Virus record (IMG/VR): IMGVR_UViG_3300027573_000136
Span: 1-20,945 of that record
Length of the DNA stretch: 20,945 bases
Source: a virus
Reading direction: 5' to 3' (one strand)
A model generated the notes under the pieces. It saw only the letters and a program-made list of their open reading frames with translations, was not told where the DNA came from and did no database searches. The position numbers and the translations under genes were made by a program. The stretch's first letter is position 1. Each line of letters begins with the position of its first letter. Of the stretch, positions 2,416 to 14,494 are shown one piece after another.

Positions 2416-3329
2416 TACGTCCTCCAGGGGTCGATCGGGTACGAGCGCTGGACGAGCCGGTCCCCGTAGACCTCCATGCTAGATTTCATGCGGACGTCCT
2501 CGTCCTGAATCTCTTGGTCGTCGGCGTTGGCCGCGGTCGTGTTCCTCGAGGCGAGGCCGCCGAGGATGTCGATGCGCGGGTCGTTCGAGTTCAGTTGCGA
2601 CAGGAACCAGACCTTGCAGTCGTCCAGGAACGTGTAGAGCAGGTCGTCCGGGATGTCGATCGGGTCGGCGGCGCCGTCGATATTGCGGTAGTACTTGAGG
2701 AGCATATTCTCGGCCACGTCCGGGGCCATGTACGCCTTCATGCGCGCGCGCTGGTCCGCCGCGGTGAAGCCGCTGCCGGAGCCCGGGGACGACGGGCCGA
2801 TGCCCGTCAGTACCTGCGTCGACTCCTGGTCCACGACCTTCCGGTCCGCTTCGCGATCCCGGATGATCTCCATCGTGCGCTTCGACGTGAGGATGCGCGC
2901 GGAGTAGAAGTCACTGAAATCGTGCGGGAGGTAGTAGTCTCGAACGCCCACGAGGATCGGGATGTACGCGGCCATCGTGAATGCCTGCGAGCCCATCGTC
3001 GCGTTGCTCGAGAGCGTGAAGACGGTCAGGCTAGTGATGCTCGCGATCGTGGCGCCTGCCGCGAGCCCGCCCCCGCTCACGCCCTGGCCGACGTTGAGGC
3101 CGGCCGTGCTCGCGACGGTGACTACAGTCCCGACGCCGCCGCCCGCGTCCGCCACTGTGCCGGTGACGGAGCGCGTGACGGCGTTGTCCTTCTTGAGGAA
3201 CTCCCACGTCATCTTGGACCACTTCTCGGCAGTCGCGAGGATCGCGTCGCCAGCTAGGGCGAGCTTGTTCGCGTCGCCCTGGGCCCCGGCCACTCGGGCG
3301 ATGTAGATTTTCGCGTTCGCTAGGGTCAC
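2415..3329 (-). CDS. Head-tail adaptor (connector)-like protein with an inserted beta module
   Basis: This 304-residue protein starts at a GTG that overlaps the stop of the glycosyltransferase gene (GTGA), with AGGAAGG upstream. An N-terminal helical part contains E35-K-W-S-K-M-T-W-E-F-L. The segment at 66-119 is a Gly/Ala/Thr/Val-rich beta module. The fold then resumes with Y132-Y-L-P-H-D-F-S and a helical C-terminal half containing I224-D-I-P-D-D-L-L-Y and W241-F-L. The helix, then YxLPxDF, then IPDxLxY pattern and the position between capsid and large tail genes resemble adaptor/gatekeeper proteins that bind the portal ring. This is inference from layout and general pattern, not a proven match. 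A small tail structural protein is the alternative. Confidence 0.65.
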   Translation of the reverse strand: MTLANAKIYIARVAGAQGDANKLALAGDAILATAEKWSKMTWEFLKKDNAVTRSVTGTVADAGGGVGTVVTVASTAGLNVGQGVSGGGLAAGATIASITSLTVFTLSSNATMGSQAFTMAAYIPILVGVRDYYLPHDFSDFYSARILTSKRTMEIIRDREADRKVVDQESTQVLTGIGPSSPGSGSGFTAADQRARMKAYMAPDVAENMLLKYYRNIDGAADPIDIPDDLLYTFLDDCKVWFLSQLNSNDPRIDILGGLASRNTTAANADDQEIQDEDVRMKSSMEVYGDRLVQRSYPIDPWRT

Positions 3330-4741
3330 TTCTTGACCTTCCTCGCCTTCACGGCTTTGCGCTTTGCGCGCGGTACCTTCTTCACCTTGGGGGAGGCCAC
3401 TGCCGCGGCGTTGGCTTCGGCGCGGAGCCGGTCGGCCTCGGGATCATAGGGGCACTCCTTCATCTTGCGGAGGCGCAGTTCGTGGTAGAAGTCGTAGAGG
3501 GCCGGGACCGTCTTGAGGTAGTGCCTGTTCTCGAGGACCCAGGCCTTGCCGCCGGCCGCGACTTTCTTCCGTAGCTCGGTGTTCTTGATGAGTTCCTCGA
3601 GGTTCGCCGCGAAGGACTCGGCCGCTAGGCGCTGGTCCTTGTTCGGGTCGTAGAGAAGGCCCGTCTCGCCGTCCACGATCTCCTCGTTGTACGGCGGCAT
3701 GTCGGGCGCGAGGGTCGCCTCCGGGCGCGGCCCGATGGAGCCCTCGTAGAACTTGATCGCGCTCTTCGACCTCGAGAACTCGTCGTCGCGGAGGACGCAG
3801 ATGTTGATGTCGCAGTCCAGGATCGCGCGCTTCGTCTTGTAGGCCTCGTACGGGACCCACGGGTGAATCTCGAGTTGCTTCTCGGGGATCGCGTCCGTGA
3901 TCCAGTTGAAGACTTCGCCGAAGATGACGAACGTCACGTGCGGGTACTTCTTCGCGATGTACGTCATCGCGGGCTTGAGGGCGAACCAGTCGCTCATGTG
4001 CGAGCCGCCGCCCTGCCAGAGGACGCGGATGTTCTTCTTGCGAGGGACGAGGTTCGGGAAGTACCAGTCCTCCGGGATGATCGAGTTCGGGAAGACGTGC
4101 GTCTGCGGGTACCCGTTCGTCTCCTGGTGGTACTTCGCGAGCCACTTGCTCGGGGTCGTGAAGGCGTCGCACTTCCGGACGAACTCGTGGAGCTTACGGT
4201 TCCAGTTCTGGTTCCGCGTCACGTCGAAGACGAAGCCCTTGTCGCCCTCCGTCACGCCGTCCTGCCACATAATGATCTTGCGGCCGTCGTTGAGGATGGT
4301 ACCGACGGAGTCGCCGGGGTTCAGGAGGTCGCCGGCCTCGGTGCGGACGCCGTAGCACGCGTACGTGTTGTTGAACGGGTGGACCCAGTCGAGGTTGTCG
4401 TCGATGTCATACACGAGCGAGGGAGGGTAGATCATCTTCCCATTGATCGTGCCGGTCTTCATGCGCCTGCACGATTCGATGAGTCCCTCGCCGGACTCGG
4501 GCTCGCACGCGTAGAAGAGGTTGATGTCGGACGTGAGCATCGAGACGATGGACCGGCGGTCCCTCACCTCGGGAATGTGGTGGTGCTTCCCGCGGTCCTC
4601 GAAGCACTCGGCGAGGCCGAGCTTCATGAGGCCCATGAACGGGACCTCGATCCGGTAGTAGACGCACGCGGAGTAGTCGCCCCTCGCGGGGGCGTACGTG
4701 TGCATCTTCCAGTCTGGGTGCGGCTGGAACTTCTCGCTCAC
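3326..4741 (-). CDS. GT-B glycosyltransferase (GT4-like) in the virion operon
   Basis: The protein has 471 residues. The frame is open further upstream, but GTG at 4741 is chosen because it has an AAAGGA site 5 bases before it and follows the previous stop by 17 bases. The N-terminal half has a Y28-Y-R-I-E motif typical of the acceptor domain, D112-I-D-D-N-L-D-W, and a T195-T-P-S-K-W segment. The C-terminal domain begins at about R239-V-L-W-Q-G-G-G and contains S326-K-S-A-I-K-F-Y-E-G and E354-I-V-D-G-E-T-G-L-L-Y, the pattern of the nucleotide-sugar binding region of group 1 (GT4) enzymes. The last 21 residues are strongly Lys/Arg-rich, an added tail of unknown use that might bind DNA or a virion partner. 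It probably transfers a sugar in the cytoplasm. The acceptor (capsid, tail protein or DNA) is unknown. Confidence 0.85.
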   Translation of the reverse strand: MSEKFQPHPDWKMHTYAPARGDYSACVYYRIEVPFMGLMKLGLAECFEDRGKHHHIPEVRDRRSIVSMLTSDINLFYACEPESGEGLIESCRRMKTGTINGKMIYPPSLVYDIDDNLDWVHPFNNTYACYGVRTEAGDLLNPGDSVGTILNDGRKIIMWQDGVTEGDKGFVFDVTRNQNWNRKLHEFVRKCDAFTTPSKWLAKYHQETNGYPQTHVFPNSIIPEDWYFPNLVPRKKNIRVLWQGGGSHMSDWFALKPAMTYIAKKYPHVTFVIFGEVFNWITDAIPEKQLEIHPWVPYEAYKTKRAILDCDINICVLRDDEFSRSKSAIKFYEGSIGPRPEATLAPDMPPYNEEIVDGETGLLYDPNKDQRLAAESFAANLEELIKNTELRKKVAAGGKAWVLENRHYLKTVPALYDFYHELRLRKMKECPYDPEADRLRAEANAAAVASPKVKKVPRAKRKAVKARKVKK

Positions 4742-5674: not shown

Positions 5675-6673
5675 CTAGGCGTCGCCCAGGAGCGCGGCGT
5701 TTTTGTTGTTGATCGACTTGATCATGCCGTCGGCCTTCTCGTTGAGGACCTCGAGGCATCCCTCGCCGACCACGATTCCGTTCACGCTATCGCCGAGCTT
5801 CCCGACGTAGTCGTGATGGACGGGATCGAACCACGCCCACCGATTCTTCGCACGCTCGAGGATGAACATCGTCCCCCGAACGTCCGTCGCGGCGCCGGAC
5901 GCGGCCGTCGTCGTGTTCGTCGACTGCGGCACGTGCCGATCCAGAACGATCGCGAGCAGGCCGAAGTCGGAGTCGAACATGTCGATGCCCTGGATCAGCT
6001 TCTTCTCGGCCGCAGCGATGTTGCGGTTCTGCTGCACGAGCGTGAAGGCCGACACCTGACGCTTCACGGCCGGGGACACGAACACCTGATCGGGGTTCCC
6101 GCCCGCCGTGTAGATCGTCTGGAGCATCGAGTTGAAGTCGTTGACGGTCAACTGACCCGCCGTCGCAGCCGCGCCAAGCGAGGCCGGGTACGCCGTGTTG
6201 CTCGTGATGAAGTTCTGGAAGCCCTTCATCACGCGCGCGGTGCCCGTCGCGCCCGTGGCCGACGTCAGGTTCGCGAACACGCTCGTCTCGATGTCGGTGG
6301 CGAGTTCCTTCGTCGCCTTGTCGATCTCGTGCGTGTAGGTGTTCCCGATCGCGGCCGGGTTGGCCTTCATCTGAGTACGCGTCACGCCGATGTCCTTGCG
6401 GAAGATCATCGAGACGTTGGTGACGCGCGTGGGGGTCGTCGACGTGACGTACGTGTACGCCGCGCCTTCGATGGCGCCCGTGGTCACGGGGCTACGGAGC
6501 GTGTCGACGAGCCACTGATGCAGCACGGACTGCGCCTGGGTCTTCGGCGCCTGGGCGAGCCAGGGCGTATCCCAGGGGGTCTGGAGCGTGTAGACGTCGA
6601 TCAGGTCTTCCCTGTTGACGTCGTTGCTCTGGCCGCCCAAACCATATTTGTATGAGCCAGCAGAAACGGACAA
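5675..6673 (-). CDS. Major capsid protein, SU10/DUF5309 type
   Basis: The protein has 332 residues and is expected to form the icosahedral shell with an HK97-like fold. Family hallmarks as I recall them: an N-terminal R21-E-D-L-I-D-V-Y-T-L followed by T-P-W-D-T-P-W-L (32-39), H52-Q-W-L-V-D-T-L, a central helix A120-T-K-E-L-A-T-D-I-E, and G191-G-N-P-D-Q-V-F-V-S-P-A-V-K before the C-terminal beta-rich domain. The order portal, scaffold, capsid supports the call. The start is TTG at 6673 with GAGGT 7 bases upstream; no ATG or GTG in this frame gives a full N-terminus. The gene follows the scaffold by 13 bases. The family assignment is from memory of the pattern, not a search. Confidence 0.9.
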   Translation of the reverse strand: MSVSAGSYKYGLGGQSNDVNREDLIDVYTLQTPWDTPWLAQAPKTQAQSVLHQWLVDTLRSPVTTGAIEGAAYTYVTSTTPTRVTNVSMIFRKDIGVTRTQMKANPAAIGNTYTHEIDKATKELATDIETSVFANLTSATGATGTARVMKGFQNFITSNTAYPASLGAAATAGQLTVNDFNSMLQTIYTAGGNPDQVFVSPAVKRQVSAFTLVQQNRNIAAAEKKLIQGIDMFDSDFGLLAIVLDRHVPQSTNTTTAASGAATDVRGTMFILERAKNRWAWFDPVHHDYVGKLGDSVNGIVVGEGCLEVLNEKADGMIKSINNKNAALLGDA

Positions 6674-9956: not shown

Positions 9957-10567
9957 CAGGTCTCCATGCCGGCTTTCTGTGGCAGCCGGAGCCAGTCGGG
10001 GATGTCGATTTCGAGCAGGGCCCCGTCGTGATCCCGGAGGCCGCCGTGGCGCCGGACGTAGTCGAGGAGTTGCCTCGTGAGGTCCACGTCGGCGCGGCAG
10101 TACGTGATGAGTTCCGCGAAGCGGCCCTGCCGCGCGAGTTCAGGCGCGTGGGCCCCGCTCCCGGACTTCCCGATCCCCATCGTGCGGAGGGACGACTCGC
10201 CGAGCTTCCAGCCGCGCTCGCGCGACCGCCCTTCGCGGTCAAGTGCATCCTTGATGAGGTCGAAGATGTCGATGTGGTACTTGACGGCGACGCGCCGGTT
10301 GAGCAGGTTCTGGACGATCTGGAGGTCAAACTCCTTCGAGTTGTACCCGACGAGGACGATCCCGGGCTGCTCGATGAGCCGCGCGAAGTCCTCGAGGGTG
10401 AAGTCGTCGTAGAGGTAGTGGTCGTCCGTCTGCGAGTCGTACGCGACGAGGGCCGAGACGCCGCCCTTGCCCTGCTTGAGGGCGTTCCAGCCGCCGACCT
10501 CGTCCGGGCCCTTGCGGGTCTCGAGGTCGAAGACGATTACGTGGAGCGGCTCATACGGGGTGGTCAT
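9956..10567 (-). CDS. DEDDy-type 3'-5' exonuclease (RNase H fold)
   Basis: The protein has 203 residues. Three exonuclease motifs can be read. Motif I is F13-D14-L-E16-T. Motif II is G74-Y-N-S-K-E-F-D81-L. Motif III is Y156-C-R-A-D160, giving the Y-x3-D form (DEDDy). These acidic residues would bind two metal ions and remove nucleotides from DNA or RNA 3' ends. The pattern resembles the YprB-like/predicted 3'-5' exonuclease group. It is unusual that it lies between large terminase (17-base overlap) and portal (1-base overlap) instead of with replication genes. This placement suggests a role in packaging, end processing or host-DNA breakdown late in infection, which is inference. The ribosome site is weak, so it may be coupled to terminase translation. 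Confidence 0.85.
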   Translation of the reverse strand: MTTPYEPLHVIVFDLETRKGPDEVGGWNALKQGKGGVSALVAYDSQTDDHYLYDDFTLEDFARLIEQPGIVLVGYNSKEFDLQIVQNLLNRRVAVKYHIDIFDLIKDALDREGRSRERGWKLGESSLRTMGIGKSGSGAHAPELARQGRFAELITYCRADVDLTRQLLDYVRRHGGLRDHDGALLEIDIPDWLRLPQKAGMET

Positions 10568-12308
10568 ACCACTCGCTTTCTCCGGTGCGACCCGGGTTCA
10601 TGTACTCCTCGACGCGTCGCCTGCGCGCGTCGCCGTGCAGTTCCAGCCGGTAGTTCAGGCCCGGCCGTAGGACCTCGTCCCCGGGCTGCATGGGGTCGAC
10701 GCTGTGAGACGCCTCGGGGCGGATCGGCTTCTTCCACACGCCGGGCTGCCAGATGTCGGACGCGGCGTCCGCGATGTCGTCGTGGTCGCCCTTGTCGAGG
10801 TTGACCATCTCGTACATCAGGCGCTCGAGGTGCTCCGTCCCGCGGATGAGCTTGACGTAGCCCTCGGCCCAGTAGGCCGCGGCCTTGCGGAGGCGGGCCG
10901 CCTTGTGCGCCGTGCGGTTGAAGAGGACGATCGAGTCGGGGCCGATGCGGAAGCCGGCCATCGCGAGCGAAATCTGGAGGAGGGCCTTGAACGTCCCGGC
11001 CTTCCCGCCGCCCTCTAGCTCGTCCGTGAGTAACTTCGCGCGGATGCCTCGAGCCCGGAGGCTCATGAGGTACCCGCAGAGCTTCGAGATGAACTGCTCC
11101 GCGCGGTCCGTCTTGTTCCGGATGATGCGGTCGATGAAGACCGTCCCGTCGTCCCGGAGTGAGTGCAGGACCCCGATGATCACGTTGAAGTCGCCCTTCG
11201 CGATCCGCTCCTCGAGCTTGAACGCGCAGTCGAGGTGGATCGTCGCGAAGTCGATCGCGGGCACGTCGTCGCGCGAGATTACCATCCGCTCGAGTTGCGC
11301 GAACTCGAGTGGCATGTGCTCGCCGATCGCGGGCGTGTTCTGAATCTGGGACGAGAACCCGATCGGGTCGTTGAGTTCGCGCCGCTCGAGTTCCTCGTAG
11401 GAGTAGACGGCCGGGAAGACGGGGCGGCCCTTCGGGTACTCGTCCGACTTCCGGTTCGGGTCGCGGCCCTGGAGGAAGTAGACGTGGCACTGCCCGTCCT
11501 TGTTCGGCGCGATCCCGTGCGGGTCCGGGTTCGGGATTCCGCTCCAGGTTGCGACGCCCTCGGTGTTCATGATGTGGCCCGGGACGTCGTTCTGCGCGTA
11601 CCGCGTCATCGAACCGAGGAAGAACCCCGCCTTCGAGAGCGCGTACATCACGGAGTCGTACGTCTCGCGCGCGTCCGTGAGCGTCTTCTCCGAGAGCGTC
11701 TCCTGCGAGTTCGGGTCGTCGTAGGCGACGGCGACGGGGTGCATGCCGGTGATGCCCATGTCGAGCCCGTACGTACCGATCGAGGGCTCCGAGATGGACA
11801 TGGCCCGGCGCGCCGCGTGGAAGACTTCCTTCTCGTTCCACGTGCGCGTCTTGTCGCGCCAGTTCCCGTAGAGCCACGCGAACCACGCGTACTCGTCCTC
11901 GCCGGAGATGACGCCCTTCACGGCCGAGAGGAAGGCCTTCGCCTTCGGGTGCGTCTCGGAGCCGATGTAGGCCGTGACGTCCGGGTCGTCGAGGTGCATC
12001 CAGAGCATCGCGGCCTTCGTGCCGCAGACGGTCTTGCCGACGTCGCGCGGGAGAATGCTGAGGAGGACCTTCCGCTTCTGGACGCCGCGCTTCGACCACG
12101 CCTTCCACTCCATGATGTGCGTGGAGAGCCACTCGAGGAAGGGCTTGTGCGGGTCGGGCGTGAGCCAGCGCGGCTTGCCCGTCTTCACGAAGTACCACTC
12201 GGCGCCCCACGCTATACGCGTGAACCACCAGAGGGAGTGGTCGCTCGTGCCGGGGGCGCACGCGTCGCGCCAGAACTCGCGTTCAGCTTCTAGGGGCCAC
12301 TCTTTCAC
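10551..12308 (-). CDS. terL: Terminase large subunit
   Basis: The protein has 585 residues from GTG 12308, which overlaps the preceding stop (GTGA); the longer open frame upstream is a shadow. The N-terminal ATPase has a Walker A-like P87-R-D-V-G-K-T (the first Gly of the classic motif is absent, common in terminases) and Walker B V192-A-V-A-Y-D197-D198. The C-terminal nuclease has D360 in T-I-H-L-D, D429 in L-L-T-D-E-L-E, and D508/D510/D511 in G-D-H-D-D-I-A-D-A, the usual three-acid RNase H-like site. It powers DNA translocation into the procapsid and cuts concatemers. A hydrophilic extension of about 50 residues follows the nuclease domain. Confidence 0.92.
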   Translation of the reverse strand: MKEWPLEAEREFWRDACAPGTSDHSLWWFTRIAWGAEWYFVKTGKPRWLTPDPHKPFLEWLSTHIMEWKAWSKRGVQKRKVLLSILPRDVGKTVCGTKAAMLWMHLDDPDVTAYIGSETHPKAKAFLSAVKGVISGEDEYAWFAWLYGNWRDKTRTWNEKEVFHAARRAMSISEPSIGTYGLDMGITGMHPVAVAYDDPNSQETLSEKTLTDARETYDSVMYALSKAGFFLGSMTRYAQNDVPGHIMNTEGVATWSGIPNPDPHGIAPNKDGQCHVYFLQGRDPNRKSDEYPKGRPVFPAVYSYEELERRELNDPIGFSSQIQNTPAIGEHMPLEFAQLERMVISRDDVPAIDFATIHLDCAFKLEERIAKGDFNVIIGVLHSLRDDGTVFIDRIIRNKTDRAEQFISKLCGYLMSLRARGIRAKLLTDELEGGGKAGTFKALLQISLAMAGFRIGPDSIVLFNRTAHKAARLRKAAAYWAEGYVKLIRGTEHLERLMYEMVNLDKGDHDDIADAASDIWQPGVWKKPIRPEASHSVDPMQPGDEVLRPGLNYRLELHGDARRRRVEEYMNPGRTGESEWYDHPV

Positions 12309-12919
12309 AGCATCGCCCCCTGGTTCATTTGTGGAAGTAGGCAGATGACCTCGTCGTGGTAGACGGGCCCGCCGAACTTGTCGACGGTCCGCGTGATGAA
12401 GGACCAGTCCGTCCGGTACCAGTCCGTGAACGCGTAGTCGGCCATCTTCGGGAGGTTCTCGCGGGGGGCCACGATCTGCTGCCCGCTGACCTTGCAGAAG
12501 GCGATCGACTGGCTCATGAGGATTCCGGTGTGCTTCATGGCGAAGATGTGCGCCTTGTCCGTCGCGCCGGTCACGCCAGCGCGCACGACGTCGAACGCGT
12601 GCGACTGTAGCTCGTCGTCGTCGCCGATGAACCAGACCATGTCGCCCGTCGCGTTCTGGACGCCGACGTCGCACGGGGTGCAGCCCCAGTCGTTCGCGCG
12701 GACGGCGAGTTCGACGTAGCGGAAGCGCGCGTCGGCGAGGGCCTCGATCTGCTCCCGTACGTTCGGGCAGGGGCCGTCGCCCACGACGACGAACTCGTCC
12801 TCGGCGCCGATGTAGTAGAGGACGTCCTTGAGGAGGCGCGCGAACGTGGACCGCCCGATCGTCGGGCAGATGAGGCTAAGGCGCGGACTTGAAGAAGGAC
12901 TGGATGGCGTCGATGACAC
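12305..12919 (-). CDS. GT-A glycosyltransferase (family 2-like)
   Basis: The protein has 204 residues. The only usable start is GTG 12919 (GAGGAG upstream), because no other start precedes the first strand. The gene therefore overlaps the aminotransferase by 44 bases. After a Ser/Pro-rich leader comes L14-S-L-I-C-P-T-I-G-R, then E42-F-V-V-V-G-D48-G, G92-D-M-V-W-F-I-G-D100-D-D (the DxD-like metal and nucleotide-sugar site) and a C-terminal Y-H188-D-E. This is the GT-A plan, but it is shorter than most family 2 enzymes. No membrane segment is seen, so it probably acts on a soluble acceptor. It ends in a four-base overlap with large terminase. Paired with the sugar aminotransferase, it may attach an amino sugar. 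Confidence 0.8.
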   Translation of the reverse strand: MSSTPSSPSSSPRLSLICPTIGRSTFARLLKDVLYYIGAEDEFVVVGDGPCPNVREQIEALADARFRYVELAVRANDWGCTPCDVGVQNATGDMVWFIGDDDELQSHAFDVVRAGVTGATDKAHIFAMKHTGILMSQSIAFCKVSGQQIVAPRENLPKMADYAFTDWYRTDWSFITRTVDKFGGPVYHDEVICLLPQMNQGAML

Positions 12920-13958
12920 GGTCCTGCTCCTCGTGCGTGATGTCTGCGTGGAGCGGGAGCGAGAGGACCTCGCGCGACGCCTCCTCGGACACGGGCCAGG
13001 GGCCCCGGCCTACGTTCTCCCCCATGAAGGTCGGCTGGAGCGGGACCGGGAGGGGGTAGTGGATGAGCGTCGGGATGCCCGCTGCCTCGAGGTGAGCGCG
13101 GAGGGCGTCCCGGAGCGGGGTGCGCGCGACGTAGAGGTGCCAGACGCGATGAGGCCCGAACCCCGTGAGGAGCCCGAGCCGCGGAATCTTGAGGCCGTCG
13201 TGGTAGTACTCGGCCGCGCGCTCGCGCGCCGCGTTCCTCTCTCGGAGGTGCGGGAGCTTGACGCGGAGGATCGCCGCCTGGACCTCGTCCATCATGGAGT
13301 TGAGGCCGCCCGGGGGCTCATGTACGTACCGGTCCGTGCGCCCGCCGTCCCGGAGGAGGCGGCACCGCTCGGCCACGATGGGGATGTTCGTGTTGATGGC
13401 GCCGGCTTCGCCGAGGGCGCCGAGGTTCTTGGTCGGGTAGAAGGAGTACGCGGTCGCGTGCGCGTGCCCGAGACCGGCCGCGCCGTGCGCGTGGGCCGCG
13501 TCCTCGACGACGACGAGGCCGTGGGCCGCGGCGACCTCCATGAACTTCACCATGTCGGTGACGTTCCCGTAGAGGTGGACCGGGACGATGGCCTTCGTGC
13601 GGGGCGTGATGAGGCGCTCGTAGTCCCAGACGTTCGGCATGTGGGACTCCCGGTAGATGTCGACGAAGACGGGCGTCGCGCCGGTCGCGCGGATCGCGAG
13701 GGCCGTGAAGCCGACGCAGTGCGCGGGCGTGAGGACCTCGTCCCCGGGGCCGATGCCGAGGGCCGTGAGGGCGATGCGGATGGCGTCGGTGCCGTTGCCC
13801 ACGCCCACCGCGTAGCGCTGGCCCGTGAAGGCGGCCCACTCGGCCTCGAACGCCTCCGTCTCGGAGCCGCCGAGGTACCAGCCGCTGTCGATGACGCGCG
13901 TCACCGCGGCCTTGACCTCGTCCTTGTACGGGAGCATGAGGTCGAGGTTGAAGTTCAT
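12876..13958 (-). CDS. DegT/DnrJ/EryC1-type sugar aminotransferase
   Basis: The protein has 360 residues from ATG 13958, with AAAGGA 8 bases upstream and ATGA overlap with the acetyltransferase stop. It belongs to the PLP-dependent family that converts a nucleotide-linked keto-sugar to an amino-sugar. Visible motifs are G54-N-G-T-D-A, V127-H-L-Y-G, E152-D153-A-A-H (D153 would hold the PLP nitrogen), and S172-F-Y-P-T-K177-N-L-G, with K177 as the Schiff-base lysine. The length is slightly shorter than many family members. No dehydratase or sugar nucleotidyltransferase is in the window, so the keto-sugar would come from the host or from genes outside. The product could be a 3- or 4-amino sugar; this cannot be told from sequence alone. 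Confidence 0.9.
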   Translation of the reverse strand: MNFNLDLMLPYKDEVKAAVTRVIDSGWYLGGSETEAFEAEWAAFTGQRYAVGVGNGTDAIRIALTALGIGPGDEVLTPAHCVGFTALAIRATGATPVFVDIYRESHMPNVWDYERLITPRTKAIVPVHLYGNVTDMVKFMEVAAAHGLVVVEDAAHAHGAAGLGHAHATAYSFYPTKNLGALGEAGAINTNIPIVAERCRLLRDGGRTDRYVHEPPGGLNSMMDEVQAAILRVKLPHLRERNAARERAAEYYHDGLKIPRLGLLTGFGPHRVWHLYVARTPLRDALRAHLEAAGIPTLIHYPLPVPLQPTFMGENVGRGPWPVSEEASREVLSLPLHADITHEEQDRVIDAIQSFFKSAP

Positions 13959-14494
13959 CCGTCGAGTCCTTTCAGGATCGCGTCGTAGTCGGGGTACCCG
14001 AGTTCGGCCCGGATGTGGCGCCTGATCCACTCGGGGACCCGTGGGCCCGGGCCTGGGTGGTAGAGGGTCTGGACGCCGTCCTTCTCGCCCGTGACGTACC
14101 AGCCGTTCTTCGTGTTGAGGTGCCGGATCGCGCCGTTCGAGGCGAGTTGCTCGCCCTTGAGGGGCTTGCCGGCCGCCTCGATATAGTGCTTGATGATCTG
14201 GTCCCCGAACCCGCTGCTCCAGTGCGCGGGGGCTACGGCAAAGAAGGGAGACGCGTAGTCCCCGTGGTCCGTGAGCATCGAGAAGGCCACGGCCTCCCAC
14301 GGGCGCTCGTCGTCGCGCCAGAGGAAGACCCTGACGTTAGCGTGGTCCTCAATCTTCCACCACCTCTGCTGGCCTTCCGGCGTCATCTCCGGGAGGGGCC
14401 TCGTGAAGTAGCTGAGATTGGCATTGAGAATCGGCCGGAGCGCCTCGATCAGGATCGGGTCGCTGTCCCGCGTCAGTAGAGTCGGCCGCAGCAT
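13955..14494 (-). CDS. GNAT-like N-acetyltransferase
   Basis: The protein has 179 residues, with AAAGGA 8 bases before ATG 14494. Features that fit a GNAT fold are the first strand-helix segment (about 14-50, with W45-W46), a central strand V54-R-V-F-L-W, F84-F-A-V-A-P then the acetyl-CoA loop S93-S-G-F-G-D-Q-I-I (compare Q/R-x2-G-x-G/A), and N120-x-A-I-R in the last part. The overall pattern resembles acetyltransferases encoded beside DegT aminotransferases, which acylate the new amino group. Substrate use is inferred from the neighbour, with which it has an ATGA overlap. It also overlaps the preceding membrane-protein gene by 146 bases in another frame. Confidence 0.7.
   Translation of the reverse strand: MLRPTLLTRDSDPILIEALRPILNANLSYFTRPLPEMTPEGQQRWWKIEDHANVRVFLWRDDERPWEAVAFSMLTDHGDYASPFFAVAPAHWSSGFGDQIIKHYIEAAGKPLKGEQLASNGAIRHLNTKNGWYVTGEKDGVQTLYHPGPGPRVPEWIRRHIRAELGYPDYDAILKGLDG

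Follow-up and report, generated by a model that had tools for sequence, protein, structure and literature searches.

Three adjacent genes, which encode a GNAT N-acyltransferase, a DegT-type sugar aminotransferase and a small GT-A glycosyltransferase (in the following referred to as the trio), recur together in a lineage of uncultured, soil-type phages. We consider it about an even question whether they constitute one biosynthetic-and-transfer module, by which a host keto-sugar would be turned into an NDP-N-acyl-3-amino sugar and passed on to an acceptor, most likely a virion protein. The more comprehensive reading, namely that the phage lineage finishes an N-acylated 3-amino sugar for its own virions from a host keto-sugar and that a GT-B glycosyltransferase of the head block acts together with the relocatable module, is put forward more tentatively.

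Gene organization

The window, i.e. the whole analysed stretch of 20,945 bases, covers part of the genome of an uncultured phage, whose capsid protein and portal are of the SU10 type according to Pfam. A second record, IMGVR_UViG_3300009678_000081 (G001), is 99.96-100% identical to it and was taken as complete because an exact terminal repeat of 123 bases was found at a length of 43,995 bases. All window genes given here with coordinates are on the minus strand. The trio starts with the GNAT gene (13955..14494, 179 aa), which is followed by the DegT/DnrJ/EryC1/StrS aminotransferase gene (12876..13958, 360 aa) and the gene of the GT-A (GT2-type) glycosyltransferase (12305..12919, 204 aa, named GT2 below). 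The neighbouring gene encodes the large terminase subunit TerL (10551..12308; phrog_38, 1.1e-38). As claimed in the preliminary description, a second glycosyltransferase of the GT-B type (3326..4741, 471 aa) is located among the head-tail genes; the SU10-type major capsid protein (MCP; 5675..6673; PF17236, 1.2e-68) is a candidate acceptor. The four enzymes were found where they had been described, and their family assignments agree with the Pfam and PHROG matches. The tight overlaps were all reproduced in the sequence: GNAT stop and DegT start share ATGA, the DegT stop (12876) and the GTG start of GT2 (12919) overlap by 44 bases, and GT2 stop and TerL start share GTGA. A purine-rich ribosome-binding site precedes each cassette gene (AAAGGA for GNAT and DegT, GAGGAG for GT2), and the GC3 of the cassette resembles the rest of the phage. 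One relative (G009) shows a DegT frame that aligns from an ATT overlapping the GNAT stop (ATTAA, L014:6926), where its relatives have ATGA; this ATT is possibly the DegT start codon in that phage.

We also looked for enzymes that could supply the sugar. G001 gave no sign of a dehydratase, epimerase, ketoisomerase or flippase, no further sugar enzyme was revealed by Pfam among its 58 proteins, and the GDP_Man_Dehyd and FdtA profiles gave zero matches in the trio phages tested. The absence of a dehydratase, earlier described for the window, thus extends to the complete 44-kb relative and supports the proposed reliance on host sugar nucleotides. Hence the host, or else an unrecognised enzyme, must supply the starting keto-sugar. 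Besides, G001 encodes a Cpn10/GroES-like co-chaperonin (L039:9333-9596; PF00166, 1.8e-15), and ORFs that read as co-chaperonin-like lie closely 5' of the trio in three relatives (G008:9833-10120, G009:40621-40899 and L149:6750-7097). RtcB RNA ligase-like ORFs, again assigned by reading, are present in both 65-kb relatives (G008:14094-15350 and G009:33145-34341); no such entry is on the Pfam list of G001.

Properties of the trio enzymes

The DegT protein is a full-length family match (PF01041, 5.9e-96, residues 13-353). It carries the PLP Schiff-base lysine that had been assigned to it, K177 in SFYPTKN, and not the histidine of the dehydratase branch; D153, S172 and N220 are also present. A loss of the lysine in relatives had been named as an argument against an active aminotransferase. 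It was looked for, and every one of the nine trio DegTs, L149 included, has retained K177; since the residue has not been lost, the enzyme is probably active. In the PDB profile ranking 7b0d (418 bits), DesV (2oga, 408 bits), QdtB (3frk, 400 bits) and WbpE (332 bits) come first, while the C-4 enzymes score lower (perosamine synthase 236, ArnB 228, WecE 185 and PseC 122 bits). DesV, QdtB and WbpE act on 3-keto sugars. By these scores the phage DegT is closest to NDP-3-keto-sugar aminotransferases and not to 4-amino enzymes.

An FdtA/QdtA-type ketoisomerase is encoded within 1.5 kb of DegT in 33 of 80 bacterial relatives (five of these proteins were checked by Pfam). A linked 3,4-ketoisomerase of that kind was found in none of seven phage records. 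The sister bacterial DegTs (L059, L077, L086 and L089) adjoin an SDR and/or a GT2 and not FdtA, which speaks against the 3-amino assignment; a 3-amino sugar is nevertheless the likely product. NCBIfam revealed no DegT equivalog above cut-off, and a literature search on DegT-type genes in phages found none. The nearest non-phage DegTs in the tree are enzymes from Chloroflexota and Acidobacteriota, a kinship which is no evidence on the host.

The GNAT protein matches PF00583 (5.6e-5, above cut-off) and has no match in NCBIfam. Its AlphaFold model reaches a pLDDT of 86.5, and the nearest PDB entries found by Foldseek are all GNATs (best 4.3e-9); the closest ones are of the PAT, SpeG and RimI types, none of them a sugar acetyltransferase. 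Within the acyl-CoA loop Q/RxxGxG/A the GxG is retained (WSSGFG in the window, QGRGYG in L003 and L018), and in the window a W replaces the first Q/R. GNAT homologues lead the trio in L003, G006, G008, G009, G012 and L147-L149. In a bacterial locus (L062) a GNAT adjoins FdtA and DegT; the phage GNAT profile aligns with this FdtA-linked GNAT collinearly but weakly (probability 13.5%), and no match to L078 was obtained in the same comparison. The GNAT alignment search recovered only three already-known loci.

GT2 is assigned to PF00535 (1.1e-5, above cut-off). Structure prediction, which the preliminary description had recommended for the glycosyltransferases, was run for GT2 and gave a GT-A fold (AlphaFold, pLDDT 88.3); the nearest PDB entries according to Foldseek are WrtF (2.9e-11), TarP and TarS, all GT-A. 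The metal-binding DxD, D100-D102 of the GDDD at 99-102, is invariant in 8 homologues. The highest 19-residue hydropathy of GT2 is 1.02, no membrane segment was indicated by hydropathy in GT2, GNAT or GT-B, and the trio enzymes and GT-B look soluble. There is no match to GT2 among cultured phages. In one contig (L147:6245-6919) a second GT2-like gene lies directly before GNAT, between portal and trio.

Distribution and descent of the trio

Relatives were identified by alignment scans with GT2 and DegT plus local searches. The trio is encoded in nine distinct phages, i.e. in the window/G001 and in eight more contigs (L003, G006, G008, G009, G012/L019, L147, L148 and L149), all of the SU10-type lineage; wherever a contig covers these regions, it has head genes of the SU10 type or shares the replication genes. 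Outside the lineage, not one of the fetched viral loci with DegT has GNAT and GT2 side by side with it. The three genes are adjacent throughout all nine phages, mostly in the order GNAT-DegT-GT2 and as GNAT-GT2-DegT in L147 and L148. The proposed search for the cassette order thus confirmed the adjacency but not a fixed slot beside TerL.

The trio precedes TerL in window/G001 and L003, separates TerL from portal in G012/L019 and L148, and portal from MCP in L147; these are three different slots of the head/packaging block. In the other four phages it belongs to the replication-side block, after an M15 peptidase gene in G006 and near a PD-(D/E)XK nuclease gene in G008, G009 and L149. Therefore, co-expression with virion genes is not conserved. 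A virion role had been concluded from the placement within the packaging operon; this placement is shared by the first five phages but not by the latter four, because of which the cassette position was rejected as proof of such a role. Homologues beside unrelated genes had in turn been regarded as an argument against a virion role, and the four replication-side trios indeed have nuclease/ATPase genes or an M15 peptidase gene as neighbours, although GT-B stays in the head block.

There are trio contigs whose portals are only 35-52% identical to the window portal. Since the adjacency is kept across such portals, together with constrained substitutions in comparison to L003, it is more than chance. 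All phage DegTs form a single clade (100/98). The groups G012+L148 and G006+window+L003 are well supported in the DegT tree and recur in the portal tree; both trees agree in outline and show no supported conflict. The GT2 tree is poorly resolved, also without supported conflict. Because DegT and portal trees agree, the trio appears to have been passed on within the phage lineage and moved in the process; we interpret the pattern as common ancestry plus relocation rather than repeated capture. The trio would be a relocatable unit that was retained while portal identity fell to about 35%. Two further records (G010 and G011) carry GNAT and GT2, located between exonuclease and portal, and DegT is missing from the DNA recovered, so the three genes need not always act together. 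A loss of the trio in L011 and L005 was considered and rejected: both are partial-genome records, in which absence was shown upstream of TerL only. A recently inserted host moron was rejected as well, trees and GC3 being against it.

In comparison to L003, dN/dS is 0.29 for DegT, 0.55 for GT2 and 0.68 for GNAT, and 0.05-0.18 for exonuclease, portal, MCP and TerL; for GT-B a value of 0.14 was obtained in comparison to L010. The dS values against L003 are likewise higher for GNAT (0.50) and GT2 (0.41) than for DegT (0.23), an indication of local recombination in these two genes on top of their rapid change. That they evolve faster than the intervening DegT suggests diversification or recombination of two specificity steps; the varying features may be acyl group and linkage.

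Sugar genes of the head block

GT-B is assigned to the glycosyltransferase group phrog_7162 (1.6e-14); its match to Glycos_transf_1 (PF00534, 1.7e-5, 24.9 bits) is just under the cut-off of 26.4. A homologue is encoded 3' of MCP in G003, G006, G007, G008, G009, G010, G014, L147 and L148, and every member whose contig covers GT-B has this gene in the head block. The gene with conserved placement is GT-B, not the trio. A different sugar module occupies the same head block in the related phage IMGVR_UViG_3300015263_001393 (G014, L055:6600-12341), between GT-B and the following head-tail gene. Besides NeuB (PF03102, 2.3e-40) and a CMP-sugar cytidylyltransferase, it includes ORFs that resemble a second cytidylyltransferase, a methyltransferase and, in two cases, GT2.

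Proposed pathway and alternative explanations

According to our proposal, DegT with PLP on K177 would aminate an NDP-keto-sugar supplied by the host, most probably an NDP-3-keto-6-deoxyhexose. GNAT would then N-acylate, probably acetylate, the new amine, and the small GT-A glycosyltransferase would shift the finished sugar from the nucleotide to the acceptor, a virion protein of the same cytoplasm that is possibly pre-glycosylated by the conserved GT-B. The three predicted folds, the retained catalytic lysine, the adjacency through deep divergence and the lack of recognisable upstream enzymes are the observations on which this pathway is built, and enzyme families and folds support the earlier claim of an N-acylated amino sugar. 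From them we infer action in series, the 3-amino position and acetyl as the acyl group; the virion protein as acceptor is less certain than these steps. In its favour, GT-B is always part of the head block, G014 holds another sugar module there, the sugar genes of the phages Zuko and ctQWt234 (see below) are located beside terminase or MCP, the enzymes look soluble, no envelope gene is among the Pfam hits of G001, and mycobacteriophages and Mimivirus provide precedents. Against it stands the position of the trio away from virion genes in four of nine phages (G006, G008, G009 and L149).

Virion glycosylation is the best single reading. Its main rival is that the same sugar is put on the host surface or on a lipid-linked precursor, so that an altered receptor would keep out superinfecting phages or stop progeny from re-adsorbing to debris. 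This is possible, though we judge it rather unlikely. Trios of the replication-side block, which are expected to be transcribed apart from virion genes, would fit such a role, as would the fact that surface-polysaccharide loci of bacteria, those of the bacterial relatives among them, typically hold DegT, GNAT and GT2 genes, and the presence of TarP and TarS, decorators of wall teichoic acid, among the fold neighbours of GT2. However, neither flippase nor polymerase was detected in the complete relative G001, GT2 is devoid of a membrane segment, and no integrase is among the G001 Pfam hits, so lasting lysogen conversion is not indicated. With regard to a gtrABC-type serotype conversion, no GtrA was found among the Pfam hits of the 58 G001 proteins.

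It seems improbable that the three genes are mere neighbours without a common pathway, with a GNAT that acetylates a protein or polyamine and with DegT and GT2 acting separately. The PAT, SpeG and RimI types as best GNAT structures, the lack of DegT in the recovered DNA of G010 and G011, and the difference in evolutionary rate between GNAT/GT2 and DegT agree with it, but the adjacency in nine contigs survives relocation as well as a change of gene order, and the GNAT of L062, which aligns collinearly if weakly with the phage profile, lies beside FdtA and DegT. We regard a function in DNA hypermodification, by which modified bases would be glycosylated against restriction, as very unlikely. Phage glycosyltransferases do glycosylate DNA according to literature cited in PMC12619734; yet in fold GT2 comes closest to polysaccharide and wall glycosyltransferases, and no thymidylate-synthase/hydroxymethylase-type gene (PF00303) was found in seven records, some of them fragments (G001, G006, G007, G008, G009, G011 and G014), because of which no hydroxymethyl base would be available for the known glycosylation route. 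Hardly credible at all is that the trio consists of functionless morons, i.e. host genes captured recently and now in decay. The raised dN/dS of GNAT and GT2 might point in that direction, but the frames are open, the motifs are intact, GC3 is phage-like and descent is deeply shared with the portal.

Comparison with known systems

Phage virion glycosylation has been demonstrated in few systems, and a lineage-wide module with its own transferase would be a concrete and assayable example. It would identify the host sugar pool that is drawn on, and virion proteins should show a recognisable gain in mass. Co-descent together with relocation also means that operon position alone poorly predicts the target.

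The closeness of DegT to the DesV/QdtB/WbpE type resembles the bacterial 3-amino-3,6-dideoxyhexose pathway (FdtA/QdtA, FdtB/QdtB and an acetyltransferase). The acetyltransferase of that pathway is a hexapeptide-repeat enzyme. In contrast, the phages have neither dehydratase nor FdtA, but a GNAT acetyltransferase and a glycosyltransferase of their own. DegT aminotransferase and GNAT are also combined in the enterobacterial WecE-WecD-WecF (Fuc4NAc) and in the PseC-PseH systems, in Wec together with a glycosyltransferase; however, the trio DegT scores far lower against WecE and PseC than against 3-aminotransferases.

Among annotated phages, Streptomyces phage Zuko (genes 4-5; L139, 1319-3384) has a sugar enzyme and a glycosyltransferase beside terminase/portal, and Podoviridae sp. 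ctQWt234 (L141, 1991-6654) has sugar enzymes and a glycosyltransferase between MCP and a phage stabilization protein. In both cases the glycosyltransferase is distantly related to the GT-B of the window, but the sugar enzymes (UDP-glucose dehydrogenase in the former, PhyH and NodB-like in the latter) differ from the trio, and the two clusters are independent. Virion glycans on capsid and tail tube are described for mycobacteriophages (Freeman et al. 2023, as cited in PMC12619734 and PMC10877033), where phage glycosyltransferases act on capsid or tail-tube proteins (PMC12619734), as is proposed for the trio phages. Those phages are unrelated and their glycosylation was experimentally shown, whereas that of the trio phages is predicted; phage amino-sugar synthesis is not mentioned in the text consulted.

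The UDP-Vio4NAc pathway of Mimivirus likewise combines a virus-encoded aminotransferase, N-acetyltransferase and glycosyltransferase; acetyltransferase and glycosyltransferase are linked, being fused in L142, which consists of an N-acetyltransferase plus a glycosyltransferase domain, and Vio4NAc is found on the virion fibrils (PMC10117803). Mimivirus, however, is a giant eukaryotic virus with more upstream nucleotide-sugar enzymes, a 4-amino sugar, a known fibril acceptor and a known glycan structure. Virus-encoded finishing and transfer of an amino sugar is thus known as such; the trio phages would add a case among bacteriophages, with a GT-B shared across their lineage. If our reading is true, the trio would be the bacterial-virus counterpart of the amino-sugar virion glycans of Mimivirus.
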